Shown one piece after another: positions 11,385-18,413 of a stretch of 64,000 bases of DNA (positions are counted from its first letter, which is position 1; the number at the start of each line of letters is the position of its first letter). Source of the DNA: an uncultured SAR116 cluster alpha proteobacterium (lineage in GTDB: Bacteria > Pseudomonadota > Alphaproteobacteria > Puniceispirillales > Marisalimonadaceae); the NCBI GenBank assembly GCA_902615995.1, contig CACMRF010000001.1, positions 62,001-126,000 on the forward strand. Reading direction: 5' to 3'. Both the position numbers and the translations under genes were made by a program. The notes under the pieces were generated by a model that saw only the letters and a program-made list of their open reading frames with translations, was not told where the DNA came from and did not search any database.

Positions 11385-12293
11385 ATGAAAATAAAAACAG
11401 ACATGCCTGAAAATGGTTGGTGGGATAAATTACCAAAAACAACACATAAATGGATTAGGTTAGGTAGGTTCGATAGACCAATAGGAAGTTGGCTATTATT
11501 ACTTCCGTGCCTTTGGACAATTCCAATTTTTTTAAATTCAATAAATAAATTATTTGAAATGTATTTAATATTTATAATCGGTGCTTTTTCAATGAGGGCA
11601 GCTGGCTGTATAATTAACGATCTATGGGACAGGGATATTGACAGAAAAATTTCTAGAACTCGTTTAAGGCCAATTGCAAGTGGAGAAATATCTCCAAAAA
11701 AGGCCTTTGGATTATTAATAATTCTTTTGACAATTTCTTTGTTTTGCTTGTTAAACTTAAATAAATTTACTTGGTTAATTGCTTTATCGTCTCTCCCATT
11801 AATTATATTATATCCACTCGCAAAAAGAATAACAAAATGGCCTCAGTTTGTATTAGGAATAACATTTAGTTGGGGAGTTCCCACAGCATGGGCTGCAACT
11901 AATACAGAATTTAATGTTGGAATTTTTTTTCTTTATTTGGGAACTGTTGCTTGGATCATAGGTTATGACACTATATATGGTTATCAAGATAAATCTGAAG
12001 ATAAAGTCTATAACATAAAAAATACAGCAATCACAACTGAAGATTATTATGTTAAATTTATAATGCTCTTCTACATAATTTCTATTTTAAATTTTCTGAT
12101 AGCAGGTATTATTTTAAAGACACATTTTGGTTGGTATATAGGTCTATTTTTTATGTTTATTCATTTTACATACCAAATTAAAAAGGCAAAAACCATTAAT
12201 AGAACTGGGGCATTACAACTATTTAAATCCAATAAGTTTGCAGGATTATTTTTAACCTTGGGATCAATGTCTAAATTTTTAGAGATGGTCTAA
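11385..12293 (+). CDS. ubiA: 4-hydroxybenzoate polyprenyltransferase
   Basis: Membrane prenyltransferase attaching the polyprenyl tail to 4-hydroxybenzoate in ubiquinone synthesis. The two Asp-rich motifs are INDLWDRDIDRKISRTRLRP and YDTIYGYQDKSEDK. The track extends the ORF 42 codons upstream into a hydrophobic stretch. I use the ATG at 11385 (MKIKTDMPENGWWDKLPK, 302 residues), which matches family length and avoids overlapping rsmE on the other strand. The 3' end overlaps blh convergently by 23 nt. Together with coq7 and a UbiH-like gene in this window it supports aerobic ubiquinone synthesis. Confidence 0.95.
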   Translation: MKIKTDMPENGWWDKLPKTTHKWIRLGRFDRPIGSWLLLLPCLWTIPIFLNSINKLFEMYLIFIIGAFSMRAAGCIINDLWDRDIDRKISRTRLRPIASGEISPKKAFGLLIILLTISLFCLLNLNKFTWLIALSSLPLIILYPLAKRITKWPQFVLGITFSWGVPTAWAATNTEFNVGIFFLYLGTVAWIIGYDTIYGYQDKSEDKVYNIKNTAITTEDYYVKFIMLFYIISILNFLIAGIILKTHFGWYIGLFFMFIHFTYQIKKAKTINRTGALQLFKSNKFAGLFLTLGSMSKFLEMV

Positions 12294-13080
12294 AATATAA
12301 ATCTACTAATATCATATGAGGAAAGGTTAAGGCAGCAAGACCAATAAATGTTACTTTAATTATAGAATGATCTAAAGAAATATTAAAATTTAAATATGTT
12401 AAAATCAAAAAACCTAAAACCCAAGTTAAAAGTGTAAAAAATAAAAACATATTTCTGATATTTTTGTCAGACAAATTATTTCTTAATGATGGCAATATTC
12501 TTTTGATGTGGTTAAAACTATGAATGAAACAAAAGTAAAAAGAAAAAGCAAAAATTGCATTTGTTGTATAAATGATCATAGATATTAAAAAAATACGAAC
12601 AATGTAATTTTTTTTAATTTCATCAAAATTTATATAAAAGTGAAATGGCAATAATATTAACCATAGGTATAAGCCATATTTTAAAATTAGCCAAAGATCA
12701 TCAGTGTTGTGATTATTTAAAAGAATTTGGTAAATTGAATTAACTTCATTGAAATGAAAAAAACTGATTCCAAAAATTACAATACCTCCATTTATATATG
12801 CCGATAACAAACATTTATAGCTTTTTGACCAACTTATATCACCGAGTCCAAAATGAATAATACTTACAAACAAGAAAATAATCAGAGTAATATTAGGAGT
12901 TAAATACCAAATCAATGTAATAGCTAAAGCTAAGAATAAATAACAAAATATAAAAAAAAATTTTGATTTTAAATTCTTATAATAACCTAATGTTAATGCT
13001 ATTGAAGCATCAAAAGCACCATGCGGAACTCCAAAAACAAAAATTAAAATCAAAGATAAGTAATCTAATAAATCAAACAT
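12271..13080 (-). CDS. blh: Beta-carotene 15,15'-dioxygenase, Brp/Blh family
   Basis: Cleaves beta-carotene with O2 into two retinal molecules, supplying the chromophore for the rhodopsin encoded upstream. The 269-residue protein is a polytopic membrane protein. Visible family motifs are GVPHGAFDASIALTLG near the N terminus, IHFGLGDISW, and the later His segments FIHSFNHIKRILP and FPHMILVDLYF; these histidines are likely iron ligands. It is the last gene of the crt block, 10 nt after crtY. It collides with ubiA (23-nt convergent overlap). Confidence 0.93.
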   Translation of the reverse strand: MFDLLDYLSLILIFVFGVPHGAFDASIALTLGYYKNLKSKFFFIFCYLFLALAITLIWYLTPNITLIIFLFVSIIHFGLGDISWSKSYKCLLSAYINGGIVIFGISFFHFNEVNSIYQILLNNHNTDDLWLILKYGLYLWLILLPFHFYINFDEIKKNYIVRIFLISMIIYTTNAIFAFSFYFCFIHSFNHIKRILPSLRNNLSDKNIRNMFLFFTLLTWVLGFLILTYLNFNISLDHSIIKVTFIGLAALTFPHMILVDLYFRPSLKI

Positions 13081-13090
13081 TAATTAATTT

Positions 13091-14185
13091 TCAATTTCTT
13101 TTAATACATTGCCATATTGCACGCAAAAATAAAAGTTTTGGTAAAGAATTTATAATTTTAAACCAAATTTTAAATGTTTGATTACCATTCATAAATAAGG
13201 CCATTTCATCTCCAGATAATTTACTATTCATTCTATAAAATAAATCTGGAAAAATTTTAGGGTTTTTTTCAAGTGCTTTCATAAAAATTTTATCCATAAA
13301 TAAACTGAATTTTGTATGAATTATATTATTTATTTTTAAGTTATTATTTAATTGATAAATAATATTACTAATTTGTTTTTGTATGTTAATAAAAGTGTAT
13401 CCAGACGAAGGTTTTGTTGCTCCACCTCTGCTTCCAATGCTAACAGAGTTTTCTTGAAAAAAATTCATATAGTGCATTGGTATTATCCCTTTTTCTTCCT
13501 TAATAACTTTAAAAAACTTTATATTAAAAAAATTTTTTAAATAAGAATTAATGGCATTTAAATAAAACTTCCTGTTTTCAACATTTTTTGAAAATAAAGT
13601 AGACTCTATTAAAGCTTTGTTCTCTGAAAAGGGTATAAAATAAATAAAATGTAACCCACGTGATTGATCGCACCTAAAATCCATAAGAATAACTGTAGAT
13701 GGGTCAAATTTATTATCGTCAGTCTCAATTGTTAAGCCTATGAAATGCTGCAATAATATATTCTTACAGAAGGCAAGATTCCTACTATCAAAAAAGTAAT
13801 CTCCTTCAATAAGTTTTTCATCAACAAAAAATTTTGAATTTTTATCCGCAACCTTTTTTTTTATGATTTTTACATTTGAATTTTTTATCTTTTCCTTACA
13901 AAAATTTATCCATTTATTTTTATTTATTAAACAGTAAGGATGCTGATACGAAAAAAATGTTTTTTCATTCTCATAATTTATAATTTTCCATTTATTCCAT
14001 TTAAGACAAATTTCATCAAAATCATGAGAATATTTATTTCTCCAAAAACCCCAATAATGATCTTTTTGATTATTTTCCGATCCTAAATAAAATTTAAATA
14101 TAGCGTCTTTAACTTCTTGTGATCTTCTTATAAAAGAAAAACCTGCACAGCCACCACCAAAAATATTTATAATTTTTTTCTTCAT
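13091..14185 (-). CDS. crtY: Lycopene beta-cyclase
   Basis: Flavin-dependent cyclase that closes both ends of lycopene to beta-carotene. The 364-residue protein begins with a dinucleotide-binding loop (IINIFGGGCAGFSFIRR). It also has VILMDFRCDQSRGLHFIYFIPF and the conserved GSRGGATKPSSGYTF segment that marks CrtY. Sequence conservation outside these blocks is low, as is usual for AT-rich marine homologs. Its start overlaps the crtB stop by 4 nt, and blh follows after 10 nt, so crtB-crtY-blh are very likely one message. Confidence 0.92.
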   Translation of the reverse strand: MKKKIINIFGGGCAGFSFIRRSQEVKDAIFKFYLGSENNQKDHYWGFWRNKYSHDFDEICLKWNKWKIINYENEKTFFSYQHPYCLINKNKWINFCKEKIKNSNVKIIKKKVADKNSKFFVDEKLIEGDYFFDSRNLAFCKNILLQHFIGLTIETDDNKFDPSTVILMDFRCDQSRGLHFIYFIPFSENKALIESTLFSKNVENRKFYLNAINSYLKNFFNIKFFKVIKEEKGIIPMHYMNFFQENSVSIGSRGGATKPSSGYTFINIQKQISNIIYQLNNNLKINNIIHTKFSLFMDKIFMKALEKNPKIFPDLFYRMNSKLSGDEMALFMNGNQTFKIWFKIINSLPKLLFLRAIWQCIKRN

Positions 14186-15081
14186 AAAATTTCTTTTAGG
14201 TTTTTATGTAAACTTTGATTATGTTTTGGAAACTTTAATGCCAAAAGTTTAAATATTTTTATAAAAGTTTTAAGTGTAAGTTTAAGCTTTTCAAAATTCG
14301 TCGTGTATATTCTTCCTTTATACCAAATAAATTTATTTTTTTTTAATTTTACGCCAATTTCTCTATATAAATTTGAAGCAATAAAGATAGCAATTCTGAA
14401 CTTTAGATTTAGAAAAACTAATCCTTTATTTCCACTTTTGTAATATAATTCAGAAATCACTAAAATTTTTTTTATGGCATCTTTTAAAATTGAGTGATTT
14501 GAATGATTATGATCTTTAGTTAAAATTAAGATTTCCTTGGGAGTTAAATTGTTGATAAATTTACCTGGCAAGTAACGTCTATTAAGTTTTGCATCTTCTT
14601 CTATATCCCTAAGTATGTTTGTAAGCTGCATAGCTATACCTAAATCAGTAGCAAAATTAAAAGAATTTTTATTTTTACATTCAAGAGCAATACACATTAA
14701 CACACCTACAGTACCAGCAACTCTGTAACAATATAAAATTAATTCTTTTTCACTCTTTATTCTAACTGATTTTTGATCAAAGATTAAACCATGCATAAGA
14801 TCTATAATTTTACTTTTGGCTAACTTACATTTTTTCAAATAACTAGGGACATATATATTATTTTCTTCTAATTTTGGGTAATCATTTTTCTTAAATAAAT
14901 TTAAAATATAGTTTAACTTTATTAAATTTTTATCTTTTGTTTTGGTATCAGCTATATCATCCAATAATCTACAAAAAGAGTATAATTCAGCACACCTAAT
15001 AAGATATTTTTTTGGTAATAATTTACCAGCCCAATAAAAACTTTTTCCATTTTGTCTTAAAATTTCTAGATAATTACTCAT
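14182..15081 (-). CDS. crtB: Phytoene synthase
   Basis: Condenses two geranylgeranyl diphosphates to phytoene. The two Asp-rich Mg-binding motifs are present: RLLDDIADTK (about residues 38-47) and QLTNILRDIEEDAKLNRRYLPG. The start SNYLEILRQNGKSFYWAGKLLP and the 299-residue length fit bacterial CrtB. It overlaps crtI by 8 nt and crtY by 4 nt. No GGPP synthase (crtE) lies in this cluster, so the substrate must come from an isoprenoid gene elsewhere in the genome. Confidence 0.95.
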   Translation of the reverse strand: MSNYLEILRQNGKSFYWAGKLLPKKYLIRCAELYSFCRLLDDIADTKTKDKNLIKLNYILNLFKKNDYPKLEENNIYVPSYLKKCKLAKSKIIDLMHGLIFDQKSVRIKSEKELILYCYRVAGTVGVLMCIALECKNKNSFNFATDLGIAMQLTNILRDIEEDAKLNRRYLPGKFINNLTPKEILILTKDHNHSNHSILKDAIKKILVISELYYKSGNKGLVFLNLKFRIAIFIASNLYREIGVKLKKNKFIWYKGRIYTTNFEKLKLTLKTFIKIFKLLALKFPKHNQSLHKNLKEIL

Positions 15082-16552
15082 TTAATATAATATTTTCAAC
15101 CACTTTTGCTGATGATAAAACACCTGGTATACCTGCTCCAGGATGAGCTCCAGATGATGAAAAATATAAATTCTTAATATGACGGTCCTTATTATGGTAT
15201 CTAAACCAAGCTGATTGTAAAAATATAGGAGCAATTGAAAAACCAGCGCCGTGCATTGATCTATATTGATTTTTAAATTCATTCGGTGTCATATAAAAAT
15301 CATTACAAATGCTTTGTTTTAATTTTGGCAATATAGTTTTATCTAAACTTTCAATTATTCTTTGTTTTAGATTATCTCCTTCAATCTTCCAATCTACTTT
15401 ACCTTGTAAATTTGGAACAGGACATAAAACATAAAAACTATCGCACCCCTTAGGGGCAAAACTTTTATCTGTAGCTGTAGGTCTATGAATATAAAGAGAA
15501 AAATCTTTGGCAAGAATTTTCTTATCAAATATATCTTTTAACAAACCCTTAAATCTTTTTCCCATCCATATAGTATGATGTGCAACTTTTGGATATTTTT
15601 TAGTTGTTCCAAAAAAAAGAACAAACATACCCATAGAATACTTTGTAAAAAATTCAGGTAAAAATTTTTTTCTTTTTCTTGTTTTTAAAATTTCTTTATA
15701 GAATGTTGGTGGATCACCATTAAAAACTAACTTATCACATTTATAAAGATTATTATTATTATCTGATATAGATACAATCCTTCCATTTTCTAAGTTAACA
15801 TTTTTTATATCTACATTTAATTTTATTTCAATTTTATGCCTTAACATTAATTTTTTTAATTCTGTTATAATTTTACCTGTTCCACCCATACAAAAATATA
15901 CACCCCAATTTCTTTCTAGAAAGTGAATTAACGCGTAAATAGAAGTTGTGTTAAAAGGATTTCCTCCAACTAGCAAAGGATGGATTGAAAATGCTGAACA
16001 TATTTTCGGATTTTTTAAGTATCTTCCAACTAATTGAGAAACCGTTAAATGAGCTTTTAATTTAATTAACGCAGGTATTTGTTTGCACATGAACCAAAAG
16101 GAATTAAAAGGCTTATCAGATAATTGAGTAAACCCAATATCAAAAATATCTTTTGAAATTTTCAATAACTTTTCATAGCCTTCCGCGTCATCCTTAGAGA
16201 ATTTTTTAATTTCAAGTTTTGTATCTTTTACAGTTCTACGATAGTCAAAAGATGATTTATCATAAAAATAAAATCTGTACCATGGATCTAAAGCAACAAA
16301 ATTTAGATATTTTTCTCTATTCTCTCCAAATAAATTAAATAACTCGTCAAACATAAACGGAGCAGTAATTACTGTAGGTCCAGCATCGTGCTTAAATCCT
16401 TTTAAATTAAAAACTTGGGCTCTACCACCAATTTCTGGTAATCGATCAATCAAAGTTACTTCATGTCCTAAAGCTTTTAGTCTAAGAGCACTTGCAATAC
16501 CACCAAAACCTGATCCAACAACAATTGAACTTATTTTTTTTTTCTTGCTCAT
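15074..16552 (-). CDS. crtI: Phytoene desaturase
   Basis: FAD-dependent desaturase converting phytoene to lycopene. The 492-residue protein has an N-terminal Rossmann motif SSIVVGSGFGGIASALRL with DRLPEIGGRAQVF. Substrate-domain signatures are FKHDAGPTVITAPFMFDELF and the C-terminal FSSSGAHPGAGIPGVLSSAK, characteristic of CrtI rather than plant-type PDS. It is the first gene after the opsin and begins just beyond the hairpin terminator that follows the opsin. It is therefore transcribed by readthrough or by its own promoter in the short gap. crtB begins within its last 8 nt. Confidence 0.96.
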   Translation of the reverse strand: MSKKKKISSIVVGSGFGGIASALRLKALGHEVTLIDRLPEIGGRAQVFNLKGFKHDAGPTVITAPFMFDELFNLFGENREKYLNFVALDPWYRFYFYDKSSFDYRRTVKDTKLEIKKFSKDDAEGYEKLLKISKDIFDIGFTQLSDKPFNSFWFMCKQIPALIKLKAHLTVSQLVGRYLKNPKICSAFSIHPLLVGGNPFNTTSIYALIHFLERNWGVYFCMGGTGKIITELKKLMLRHKIEIKLNVDIKNVNLENGRIVSISDNNNNLYKCDKLVFNGDPPTFYKEILKTRKRKKFLPEFFTKYSMGMFVLFFGTTKKYPKVAHHTIWMGKRFKGLLKDIFDKKILAKDFSLYIHRPTATDKSFAPKGCDSFYVLCPVPNLQGKVDWKIEGDNLKQRIIESLDKTILPKLKQSICNDFYMTPNEFKNQYRSMHGAGFSIAPIFLQSAWFRYHNKDRHIKNLYFSSSGAHPGAGIPGVLSSAKVVENIILNE

Positions 16553-16576
16553 TTTAAATTATTTTAAATTTAGATT

Positions 16577-16605
16577 AAAAAAAAAGCCAGTCCAAAAGGA
16601 CTGGC
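16577..16605 (-). terminator. Rho-independent terminator after proteorhodopsin
   Basis: On the minus strand the sequence reads GCCAGTCC-TTTT-GGACTGGC followed by nine T. The stem is a perfect 8 bp, GC-rich in an otherwise AT-rich region, with a four-base loop and a full U-tract. It lies about 22 nt downstream of the opsin stop and just before crtI. It should end or sharply reduce opsin transcription before the crt genes. Confidence 0.9.
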
Positions 16606-16627
16606 CTTTATAATAATAATGTTAAAT

Positions 16628-17389
16628 TTAAGCTTTTGCAGTAGAGTCCGCAGCTGCCCAAATTGCTAAACAAAATCCAATTTTGTTTAGTACGTCAGCT
16701 ATGTTATAAATCATATTTAAACTGTTAGCGTCTGCGCCTCCAGCCATATAACCTACAAAATAACCGATTGGATAAATTGCCCAACCAATGGTTACAATCC
16801 ATCTCATTGTCGAAAAACCTGATTGTACTGCTGCAGGTGCATCAGATGCACTTACTTTACCAGCTTCACCAGCAAAGATTTCATACAGAATGTAAATCCA
16901 ACCAGCCATTCCAATAACAAAACCAAGTGTAGCATTTATAAATCCAGCTTCACCTAAATATCCACCAACAAGCATTATTACGGATCCTATAAATAGTCTC
17001 CAGAATACACCCATTGCAATAGTTGTGCATGCTGCAAGTATAATGTAGAACTCTATCATTTGTAATGGAACAGTAATAATCCAGTCTACATATCTAAAAA
17101 CAGTAGGTGATGCTCCTGTGGAAACCCAAACATCTCTCATGTAAAAATAATGGACTGCTGCCACCATACATACTAAGCCGCCAACAACTAAAGATGTTCT
17201 CCATTTGCCTTCAAATCTTAATGATTCTAAGAAAAAGAATGTGGCTGCTGCTACCATAGCAATAGAGATGATCCAAAAAGTGATACCTACTGGATCTGTA
17301 GGCTCTAAGTTGCCAGAAGCATAACTTAGAGTTGGTAGTCCAGCAAACAATATTGCTGGTAATATATATTTTAAAAATTTGAACGACAT
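16628..17389 (-). CDS. Proteorhodopsin, light-driven proton pump, predicted blue-absorbing
   Basis: Seven-helix retinal protein that exports protons in light. A signal peptide (about residues 1-24, ...LSYASG) precedes the helices. In helix C, RYVDWIITVPLQMIEFYI gives the proton-pump residues D102 (acceptor), T106 and E113 (donor), the DTE pattern of proteorhodopsins. The tuning position (105 in the reference numbering) is Q110, which marks blue-absorbing variants. H80 (AVHYFYM) matches the conserved His partner of the acceptor. The Schiff-base lysine is K236 in IADVLNKIGF, with D232 as counterion. A strong GGGGAGG ribosome binding site precedes the ATG, better than most in the window, suggesting high expression. 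The retinal pathway genes follow directly. Confidence 0.98.
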   Translation of the reverse strand: MSFKFLKYILPAILFAGLPTLSYASGNLEPTDPVGITFWIISIAMVAAATFFFLESLRFEGKWRTSLVVGGLVCMVAAVHYFYMRDVWVSTGASPTVFRYVDWIITVPLQMIEFYIILAACTTIAMGVFWRLFIGSVIMLVGGYLGEAGFINATLGFVIGMAGWIYILYEIFAGEAGKVSASDAPAAVQSGFSTMRWIVTIGWAIYPIGYFVGYMAGGADANSLNMIYNIADVLNKIGFCLAIWAAADSTAKA

Positions 17390-17447
17390 TAAGGACCTCC
17401 CCTATAAGTTAAAATTCGCTCGTAATTAGAATACACTAATTTTGATG

Positions 17448-17476
17448 AGAATATGTTTTAAATGAATATGAATCAA
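17448..17476 (-). promoter_or_regulatory. Candidate sigma-70 promoter for proteorhodopsin
   Basis: Read on the minus strand: TTGATT, 17-nt spacer, TATTCT. This would start transcription about 50 nt upstream of the opsin ATG. The spacing is ideal and the location sensible, but both hexamers deviate from consensus and the region is AT-rich. The rest of the 250-nt gap up to the next gene shows no other clear structure. Confidence 0.35.
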
Positions 17477-17639
17477 CTGTTAAAACGATCTGTTTTTTCT
17501 AATTAAGAAAAATTTAAATTATCTTATTGAATTTATTGAATATTTTAATTTCAAAAAAAAATAATTAATTTTCTTGATTTTTAAAATTTTTCGTTTTTTT
17601 AAAAGAAATAACTACATATTGTGGTATTAAACAATTATT

Positions 17640-18413
17640 TTAATAAATATTGTTACCACTAACTTTTAAATCCAGAATTTTCCAAGGGACATGCTTAGGC
17701 AAAAAGCTTTTTTTTGACATTTTGTCGATTAATGAGAGTCTTTTACTTTTATTAGAAATAAAATTTTTTAACCAAGTTTCTAAAGAAGTTTGACCATCAG
17801 GATTTTCTAAAAATAATTTATTTAATGCTTGATACTCATTAATAGATGAATGTGTATTTGCATTTGATTTTATTTTTTTCAATCTCAATGGTCCATTTCC
17901 ATCAAACAAATACCCTCCTCTAGTTGAAATGTACCCAAAAATAGAGCCAGAATAATCATCTTCTTGAATAGTAACTGTATTTTTATCTAATTCTACGTAA
18001 TGATAAGCTATTCCCAAACCCTCTGAAAGGTGCATAATTTGTAATTGATCATGATTTAACCAAAGCAAATTCAAATCAGACACTGATCCTTCACAAGGCC
18101 ACTGAGTTGCAGGTATAGAACCGTATGCTGACATTGAAGCCGCGTAAACAATGACAGAATTATATAATTTTGCTGGAGTTACACATAGATTCTCTTTTAC
18201 ACCAAATTTATTTTTTAATTGATATGGAGATCTATTAGATCCAATGGATAAAATTGGAACTCTATCTTTAAGTGATATGTGTATCCCTTGATAAAATTTT
18301 CTATTCTTGAATGTAAATGAGGTTGTAGGTGCTTTATAAGGGTAACTTATTGCTTTTTCAAACCAGTTATATTCTGGGAAATATTTTTTATCTGCATGAA
18401 CAAAACATTCCAT
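17640..18413 (-). CDS. Conserved-looking hypothetical protein downstream of argC
   Basis: 257 residues, soluble, with no signal peptide or membrane helix. I do not recognise a named family. Visible blocks: FYQGIHISLKDRVPILSIGSNRSPYQL (the segment GSNRSPYQLKNKFG looks like a conserved motif), YAASMSAYGSIPATQWPCEGS, LSEGLGIAYHYVELD and GYISTRGGYLFDGNGPLRL. The GSNRSP loop is faintly reminiscent of the substrate loop of gamma-glutamylcyclotransferase-fold proteins, but this is not enough to assign a function. It starts 5 nt after the argC stop, so it is cotranscribed with argC and perhaps regulated with arginine synthesis. It ends 250 nt before the opsin. Confidence 0.8.
   Translation of the reverse strand: MECFVHADKKYFPEYNWFEKAISYPYKAPTTSFTFKNRKFYQGIHISLKDRVPILSIGSNRSPYQLKNKFGVKENLCVTPAKLYNSVIVYAASMSAYGSIPATQWPCEGSVSDLNLLWLNHDQLQIMHLSEGLGIAYHYVELDKNTVTIQEDDYSGSIFGYISTRGGYLFDGNGPLRLKKIKSNANTHSSINEYQALNKLFLENPDGQTSLETWLKNFISNKSKRLSLIDKMSKKSFLPKHVPWKILDLKVSGNNIY

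Follow-up and report, generated by a model that had tools for sequence, protein, structure and literature searches.

A low-GC SAR116 proteorhodopsin locus with a retinal gene set, without crtE and idi, and with signs of opsin exchange between blue and green lineages

In the sunlit ocean, SAR116 bacteria count among the abundant heterotrophs. In the window, a 64,000-nucleotide stretch of contig CACMRF010000001.1 from an uncultured member of this group, a proteorhodopsin gene lies on one strand with the retinal biosynthesis genes crtI, crtB, crtY and blh, all identified by Pfam or NCBIfam searches, and no crtE for geranylgeranyl diphosphate (GGPP) synthase lies among them. This raises the question of how such a photosystem would obtain its GGPP, and how the colour of its opsin is set and changed. 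Our reading, to which we give a probability of roughly 75%, is that the locus is the photosystem of the low-GC SAR116 group LGC2, with an outward proton pump whose predicted absorption is blue, opsin-rich expression, loss of crtE and idi, GGPP fed by the short-chain prenyl synthase IspA, and exchange of the opsin.

The G+C content of the window is 23-32% along its length, and its nearest records are SAR116 single-cell genomes, whose opsins are 98-100% identical to that of the window. The genome, 57% complete, is a low-GC SAR116 genome (LGC2). Membership of the compared genomes in LGC2 and LGC1 was assigned by equating these with two groups of genomes (f1 and f3, respectively) via gene content and the record titles of matching contigs. 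According to the sections of PMC8547437 available to us, the low-GC (LGC) SAR116 subclade, which has no cultures, recruits most at the deep chlorophyll maximum. The same sections report that every SAR116 opsin has the Asp-Thr-Glu (DTE) motif, that 90 of 91 are blue, and that the retinal cluster adjoins the opsin, LGC1 excepted. An earlier note, made from the sequence of the window, had proposed an open-ocean light niche; this distribution and the same-genus single-cell records both fit it.

Direct reading of the opsin gave H80, D102, T106, Q110, E113 and K236. The Asp acceptor, its His partner, the Thr, the Glu donor and the retinal-binding Lys are all present. The opsin is a full-length microbial rhodopsin match and aligns end to end with the solved proteorhodopsins 4kly and 8cqc. 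In this alignment Q110, in RYVDWIITVPLQMIEF, falls on the Gln of the blue 4kly (RYINWLLTVPLQVVEF) and on the Leu of the green 8cqc. Position 105, whose equivalent here is 110, is mainly responsible for proteorhodopsin colour (PMC10807816). The residues D102, T106, E113 and K236 and the tuning-position Gln, as listed in the earlier note, were all recovered. Its proton pump is borne out by DTE plus Lys, and its blue tuning stands as a prediction. From these residues, pumping of protons under blue light can be soundly predicted for the opsin; the protein would be a retinal-bound outward pump.

An assembly gap does not account for the absence of crtE from the cluster, also pointed out before: the sequence runs unbroken through the interval, and the arrangement is repeated in the loci L002-L005 and throughout LGC2. 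The absence reaches further than was claimed, for the whole family is without crtE, and type-2 idi (idi2) is absent too: 17 high-GC genomes have an idi2 over the cut-off, as against 0 of 37 in the family and none among LGC genomes. In high-GC SAR116 the order is opsin-crtE-crtI-crtB-crtY-blh-idi2, with crtE beside the opsin and idi2 directly after blh. The presence of crtE and idi is a frequent, not a universal, feature of retinal clusters. Exactly two polyprenyl synthases, IspA and IspB, were found in all six LGC2 genomes that are at least 90% complete, and no third synthase class was found in the 37 family genomes. Crt-bearing high-GC genomes usually have three, and G043 (no opsin match) and LGC1 (opsin, no blh) have at most two. 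LGC2 is without crtE and idi, and not without ispA. The loss of both precursor-supply genes from the cassette looks new.

The earlier note held that precursor supply is uncoupled from the cassette. We recast this more narrowly: the GGPP source has no assigned enzyme, and the only polyprenyl synthase of the genome looks like a farnesyl diphosphate (FPP) synthase. A search of the genome for a GGPP synthase returned this one FPP-synthase-like protein, encoded about 60 kb from the opsin, and no IspB is assembled. The IspA of the window's genome looks like an FPP synthase because of its family score and of a Tyr at the fifth position ahead of the first Asp-rich motif. Against the FPP synthase family NF045485 (cut-off 275 bits) it scored 268.8 bits, and two LGC2 relatives scored 281.5 and 280.6 bits. 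The Tyr is present in 18 of the 18 LGC2 sequences compared. In the floor model (PMC7261888) chains stop growing at FPP when a large residue stands at this place, a position at which type II GGPP synthases have no aromatic residue. IspA departs from the type II pattern, in which positions four or five ahead of the first Asp-rich motif bear no large aromatic residue. In a Bacillus FPP synthase, replacement of the Tyr five residues before that motif by His reportedly made the enzyme a GGPP producer. A His or Lys before the KTG motif was considered as a mark of GGPP synthesis and dropped, as E. coli FPP synthase has His there.

Other changes were seen in LGC2 IspA (L001:1399-2322, minus strand). 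Compared with the high-GC and LGC1 proteins, it has replacements directly after GGQ (residues 172-178), namely M172Q, L175I/M and E178T/N/S. The GK after the second Asp-rich motif (residues 258-259), kept in all compared high-GC and LGC1 sequences, is lost. Conserved-site replacements number 10/93 in IspA and 13/108 in IspB. Since such changes are no commoner than in IspB, a GGPP-specific shift in LGC2 IspA was rejected and no functional shift is claimed. In the SAR11/HIMB59-like loci (L029-L055) an IspA-type synthase lies about 0.4-0.6 kb upstream of the opsin, divergently on the opposite strand, and is the sole short-chain prenyl synthase found. Its residue five places ahead of the first Asp-rich motif is His in place of Tyr, which may make this synthase a GGPP producer.

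We consider a partly GGPP-making IspA the most likely source of GGPP in LGC2, ahead of scavenging and of leakage from IspB, and rate it at somewhat better than even. The housekeeping enzyme, distant from the cassette, would act in part as a GGPP synthase. CrtI, CrtB, CrtY and Blh, by the known activities of their families, would then turn GGPP to phytoene, lycopene, beta-carotene and retinal.

The sections of PMC8547437 available to us propose uptake of retinal, as LGC members are described there as lacking "isopentenyl diphosphate isomerase (ispA)". LGC SAR116 would then be unable to make GGPP, and crtI, crtB, crtY and blh would be relics or would act on imported precursors only. LGC2 is indeed without a recognised GGPP synthase, and LGC1 keeps an opsin without blh, so some relatives must obtain retinal otherwise. 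However, the four genes are intact across LGC2, without stop codons. Their ratios of nonsynonymous to synonymous divergence (dN/dS) are 0.07-0.21, like those of housekeeping neighbours, with 0.07-0.10 for crtI within the window's genus. Scavenging of retinal is argued against because these four genes are under purifying selection. Moreover, blh occurs in 31 of the 37 family genomes (6/6 of those at least 90% complete), and ispA, the gene given as missing, is present, while crtE and idi are absent. We regard retinal uptake as unlikely. Somewhat less probable again is that the long-chain synthase IspB, not IspA, releases a GGPP intermediate to CrtB. At the fifth position IspB carries Ala; its chain elongation passes through C20, and every near-complete LGC2 genome encodes it. 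Yet long-chain prenyl synthases generally hold their intermediates, and this one has an ordinary long-chain look, its best NCBIfam match being octaprenyl diphosphate synthase at 255 bits, below the cut-off.

As for colour, most LGC2 opsins have Gln at the tuning site. Leu was found in G006, a genome of the window's genus (L109/L146), and in the loci L023, L024, L027, L028 and L111. Leu-opsin and Gln-opsin loci have the same gene neighbourhood. G006 and the window are mostly 88-98% identical through argC and the gene of a 257-residue protein (u257); identity is 95-97% up to about position 17770, 80-83% in the spacer and 63% at the start of the opsin. Synonymous divergence between the two goes from 0.11-0.23 to 1.4-1.6 at the opsin. 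In an opsin tree with the tuning column masked, the blue and green LGC2 opsins form two distant clades. Holding the window's genus together was rejected (approximately unbiased test, p about 1e-94), and so was a single clade of all LGC2 opsins (p = 2e-4). The crtI tree follows the species, and a clade of green-bearing genomes was rejected in it (p = 6e-8). Because the opsin and crtI trees conflict, the opsin has been replaced independently of crtI at this locus. Colour change thus comes by opsin replacement at one fixed locus, the opsin alone being exchanged between blue (Gln) and green (Leu) lineages, most likely by homologous recombination. In a second genus the flanks are too diverged for a breakpoint to be read from nucleotide identity, and replacement there rests on tree incongruence. 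The G006 assembly does not contain blh, which was looked for to place the downstream limit of the exchange.

Between the window and its closer relatives L003 and L005 (positions 13150-17400), synonymous divergence is 0.35-0.55 over opsin-crtI-crtB-crtY versus 0.09-0.21 in the flanks, that is, two to five times higher. This is in line with more recombination in this stretch than in its surroundings. The green locus L024 is from the Black Sea at 30 m, an origin taken from the sample naming in PMC8067304; going by record titles only, L027 is probably from Fram Strait and L028 probably from the Caspian. The blue loci are mostly from single-cell SAR116 genomes. Green versus blue opsins fit green versus blue water, in small numbers.

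The gap between opsin and crtI holds an intrinsic terminator. All 32 distinct LGC2 loci have such a terminator after the opsin, versus 0.15 expected from shuffles, and no terminator follows crtI, crtB, crtY or blh (0/19 LGC2 loci each). The sequence of its stem varies by genus (GGCCAGTCC, AGCCTGTAGG, ACCAGCCTG), with pairing and position constant. Ribosome-binding sites in LGC2 are strong for the opsin (mean -9.7 kcal/mol, with none of the 19 weaker than -8.4) and for no other cassette gene, the means for the enzyme genes being -1.4 to -2.6 kcal/mol. Promoter-like matches numbered 39 versus 43 in shuffles, which is no excess, and no promoter was called. With a strong ribosome site on the opsin alone and a terminator in the opsin/crtI gap, this anatomy suggests much opsin and little enzyme. 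A separate opsin message, strongly translated and ending at the terminator, would yield an excess of opsin, and crtI-crtB-crtY-blh would be expressed at a low level, via read-through or a weak promoter.

Some points weigh against our reading of the locus. The sharp identity edge at the opsin was seen only in G006, which here is one 4.65-kb contig of a 69%-complete genome. Such a contig could be an assembly chimera or carry a contaminant opsin, colour differences having otherwise arisen by point mutation. But its gene order and orientation fit the locus, its argC and u257 are 95-97% identical to those of the window, and its crtI falls within the window's genus; other genera show this incongruence too (L023, L024, L027, L028 and L111), and the clades emerged even though the tuning column had been masked. 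We therefore hold a chimera or contaminant to be improbable. The expression design, in turn, is not peculiar to SAR116, because similar terminators follow the opsins of SAR11-like loci. Some other opsin loci carry one as well, and the terminator was rejected as an LGC2 novelty. Less credible still is an unassembled crtE elsewhere in the window's genome: that genome is incomplete and its IspB is missing from the assembly too, but the near-complete LGC2 genomes hold IspA and IspB only, with no third class in the family.

Table 1. Features of the opsin and retinal gene locus, in window coordinates.
Feature	Position	Strand	Basis
Opsin leader and spacer, where G006 identity collapses; taken as the upstream edge of the opsin replacement	17390..17639	-	Identity profile
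Opsin Shine-Dalgarno, strong (AGGGGAGGT)	17395..17403	-	Duplex energy about -12.4 kcal/mol in the window's genus
Opsin, proteorhodopsin, DTE proton-pump motif, tuning-site Gln (predicted blue)	16628..17389	-	PF01036 143 bits; 4kly/8cqc alignment; residues
Intrinsic terminator between opsin and crtI	16582..16609	-	12-bp stem and U-tract; fold z -5.8; 32/32 distinct LGC2 loci
crtI, phytoene desaturase	15074..16552	-	TIGR02734 505 bits, cut-off 238
crtB, phytoene synthase	14182..15081	-	PF00494 141 bits, over cut-off; under NCBIfam equivalog cut-offs
crtY, lycopene cyclase (divergent)	13091..14185	-	PF05834 132 bits, over cut-off; TIGR01790 72.8 bits, below cut-off
blh, beta-carotene 15,15'-dioxygenase	12271..13080	-	TIGR03753 167 bits, cut-off 95; PF15461 156 bits

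The five minus-strand open reading frames between 12271 and 17389, with families assigned by Pfam or NCBIfam, agree with the order opsin-crtI-crtB-crtY-blh on a single strand given in the earlier note. Its overlapping starts and stops hold at two of the four junctions, crtI/crtB (8 nt) and crtB/crtY (4 nt, ATGA). A 10-nt gap separates crtY and blh and a 75-nt gap separates opsin and crtI, and the fully overlapping five-gene operon was not upheld. CrtB and CrtY appear somewhat divergent, since they score over Pfam but below NCBIfam cut-offs. Beyond the cassette, the 3' ends of blh and the convergent ubiA share 23 nt (12271-12293), and the ubiA, rsmE and gshA neighbourhood is kept across LGC2. 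The u257 gene (17640-18413, minus strand) lies directly 5' of the opsin throughout LGC2 and is under purifying selection; its product has no match in Pfam or NCBIfam.

The cassette finding itself is largely published already, going by the sections of PMC8547437 available to us, and those sections contain no description of the terminator or of the blue/green replacement. Our literature search on opsin recombination and colour, with most subscription papers outside its scope, did not find a blue/green swap at this locus, and exchange at the same chromosomal spot looks new. A wider claim would be that colour is a swappable trait, blue Gln and green Leu opsins being exchanged by homologous recombination at a fixed locus across genera and habitats with the retinal operon untouched, and that GGPP comes via an IspA outside the fifth-residue rule. 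We put this forward as tentative, at rather less than even. If the opsin alone swaps at one locus, a population could shift its light niche by recombination, with no tuning mutation awaited and the retinal supply untouched. If LGC2 makes its own retinal, the published inference of dependence on outside retinal needs revision.

Comparison with known systems places the locus as follows. The blue proteorhodopsin 4kly matches the opsin end to end and shares Gln at the tuning site, but is from another organism and has Asn at the counter-ion site in the solved chain, where the window's opsin has Asp. The LGC2 cluster of PMC8547437, as described in the sections available, shares the lineage, DTE, a blue-type opsin, a same-strand adjacent retinal cluster and an absent precursor gene; there ispA is named as missing and retinal uptake is inferred, whereas the genomes compared here keep ispA, have neither crtE nor idi, and show selection on the enzyme genes. 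The high-GC SAR116 cluster (G037, G042, G053 and others) has opsin, crtI, crtB, crtY and blh in the same order on one strand, but with crtE between opsin and crtI and idi2 after blh, neither of which is in the LGC2 cluster. The SAR11/HIMB59-like loci are similar in having no crtE by the opsin, a post-opsin terminator, mostly Gln opsins, and crtI-crtB-crtY-blh downstream. In these, however, the IspA-type gene adjoins the opsin and carries His at the fifth position, while the IspA of LGC2 has Tyr.

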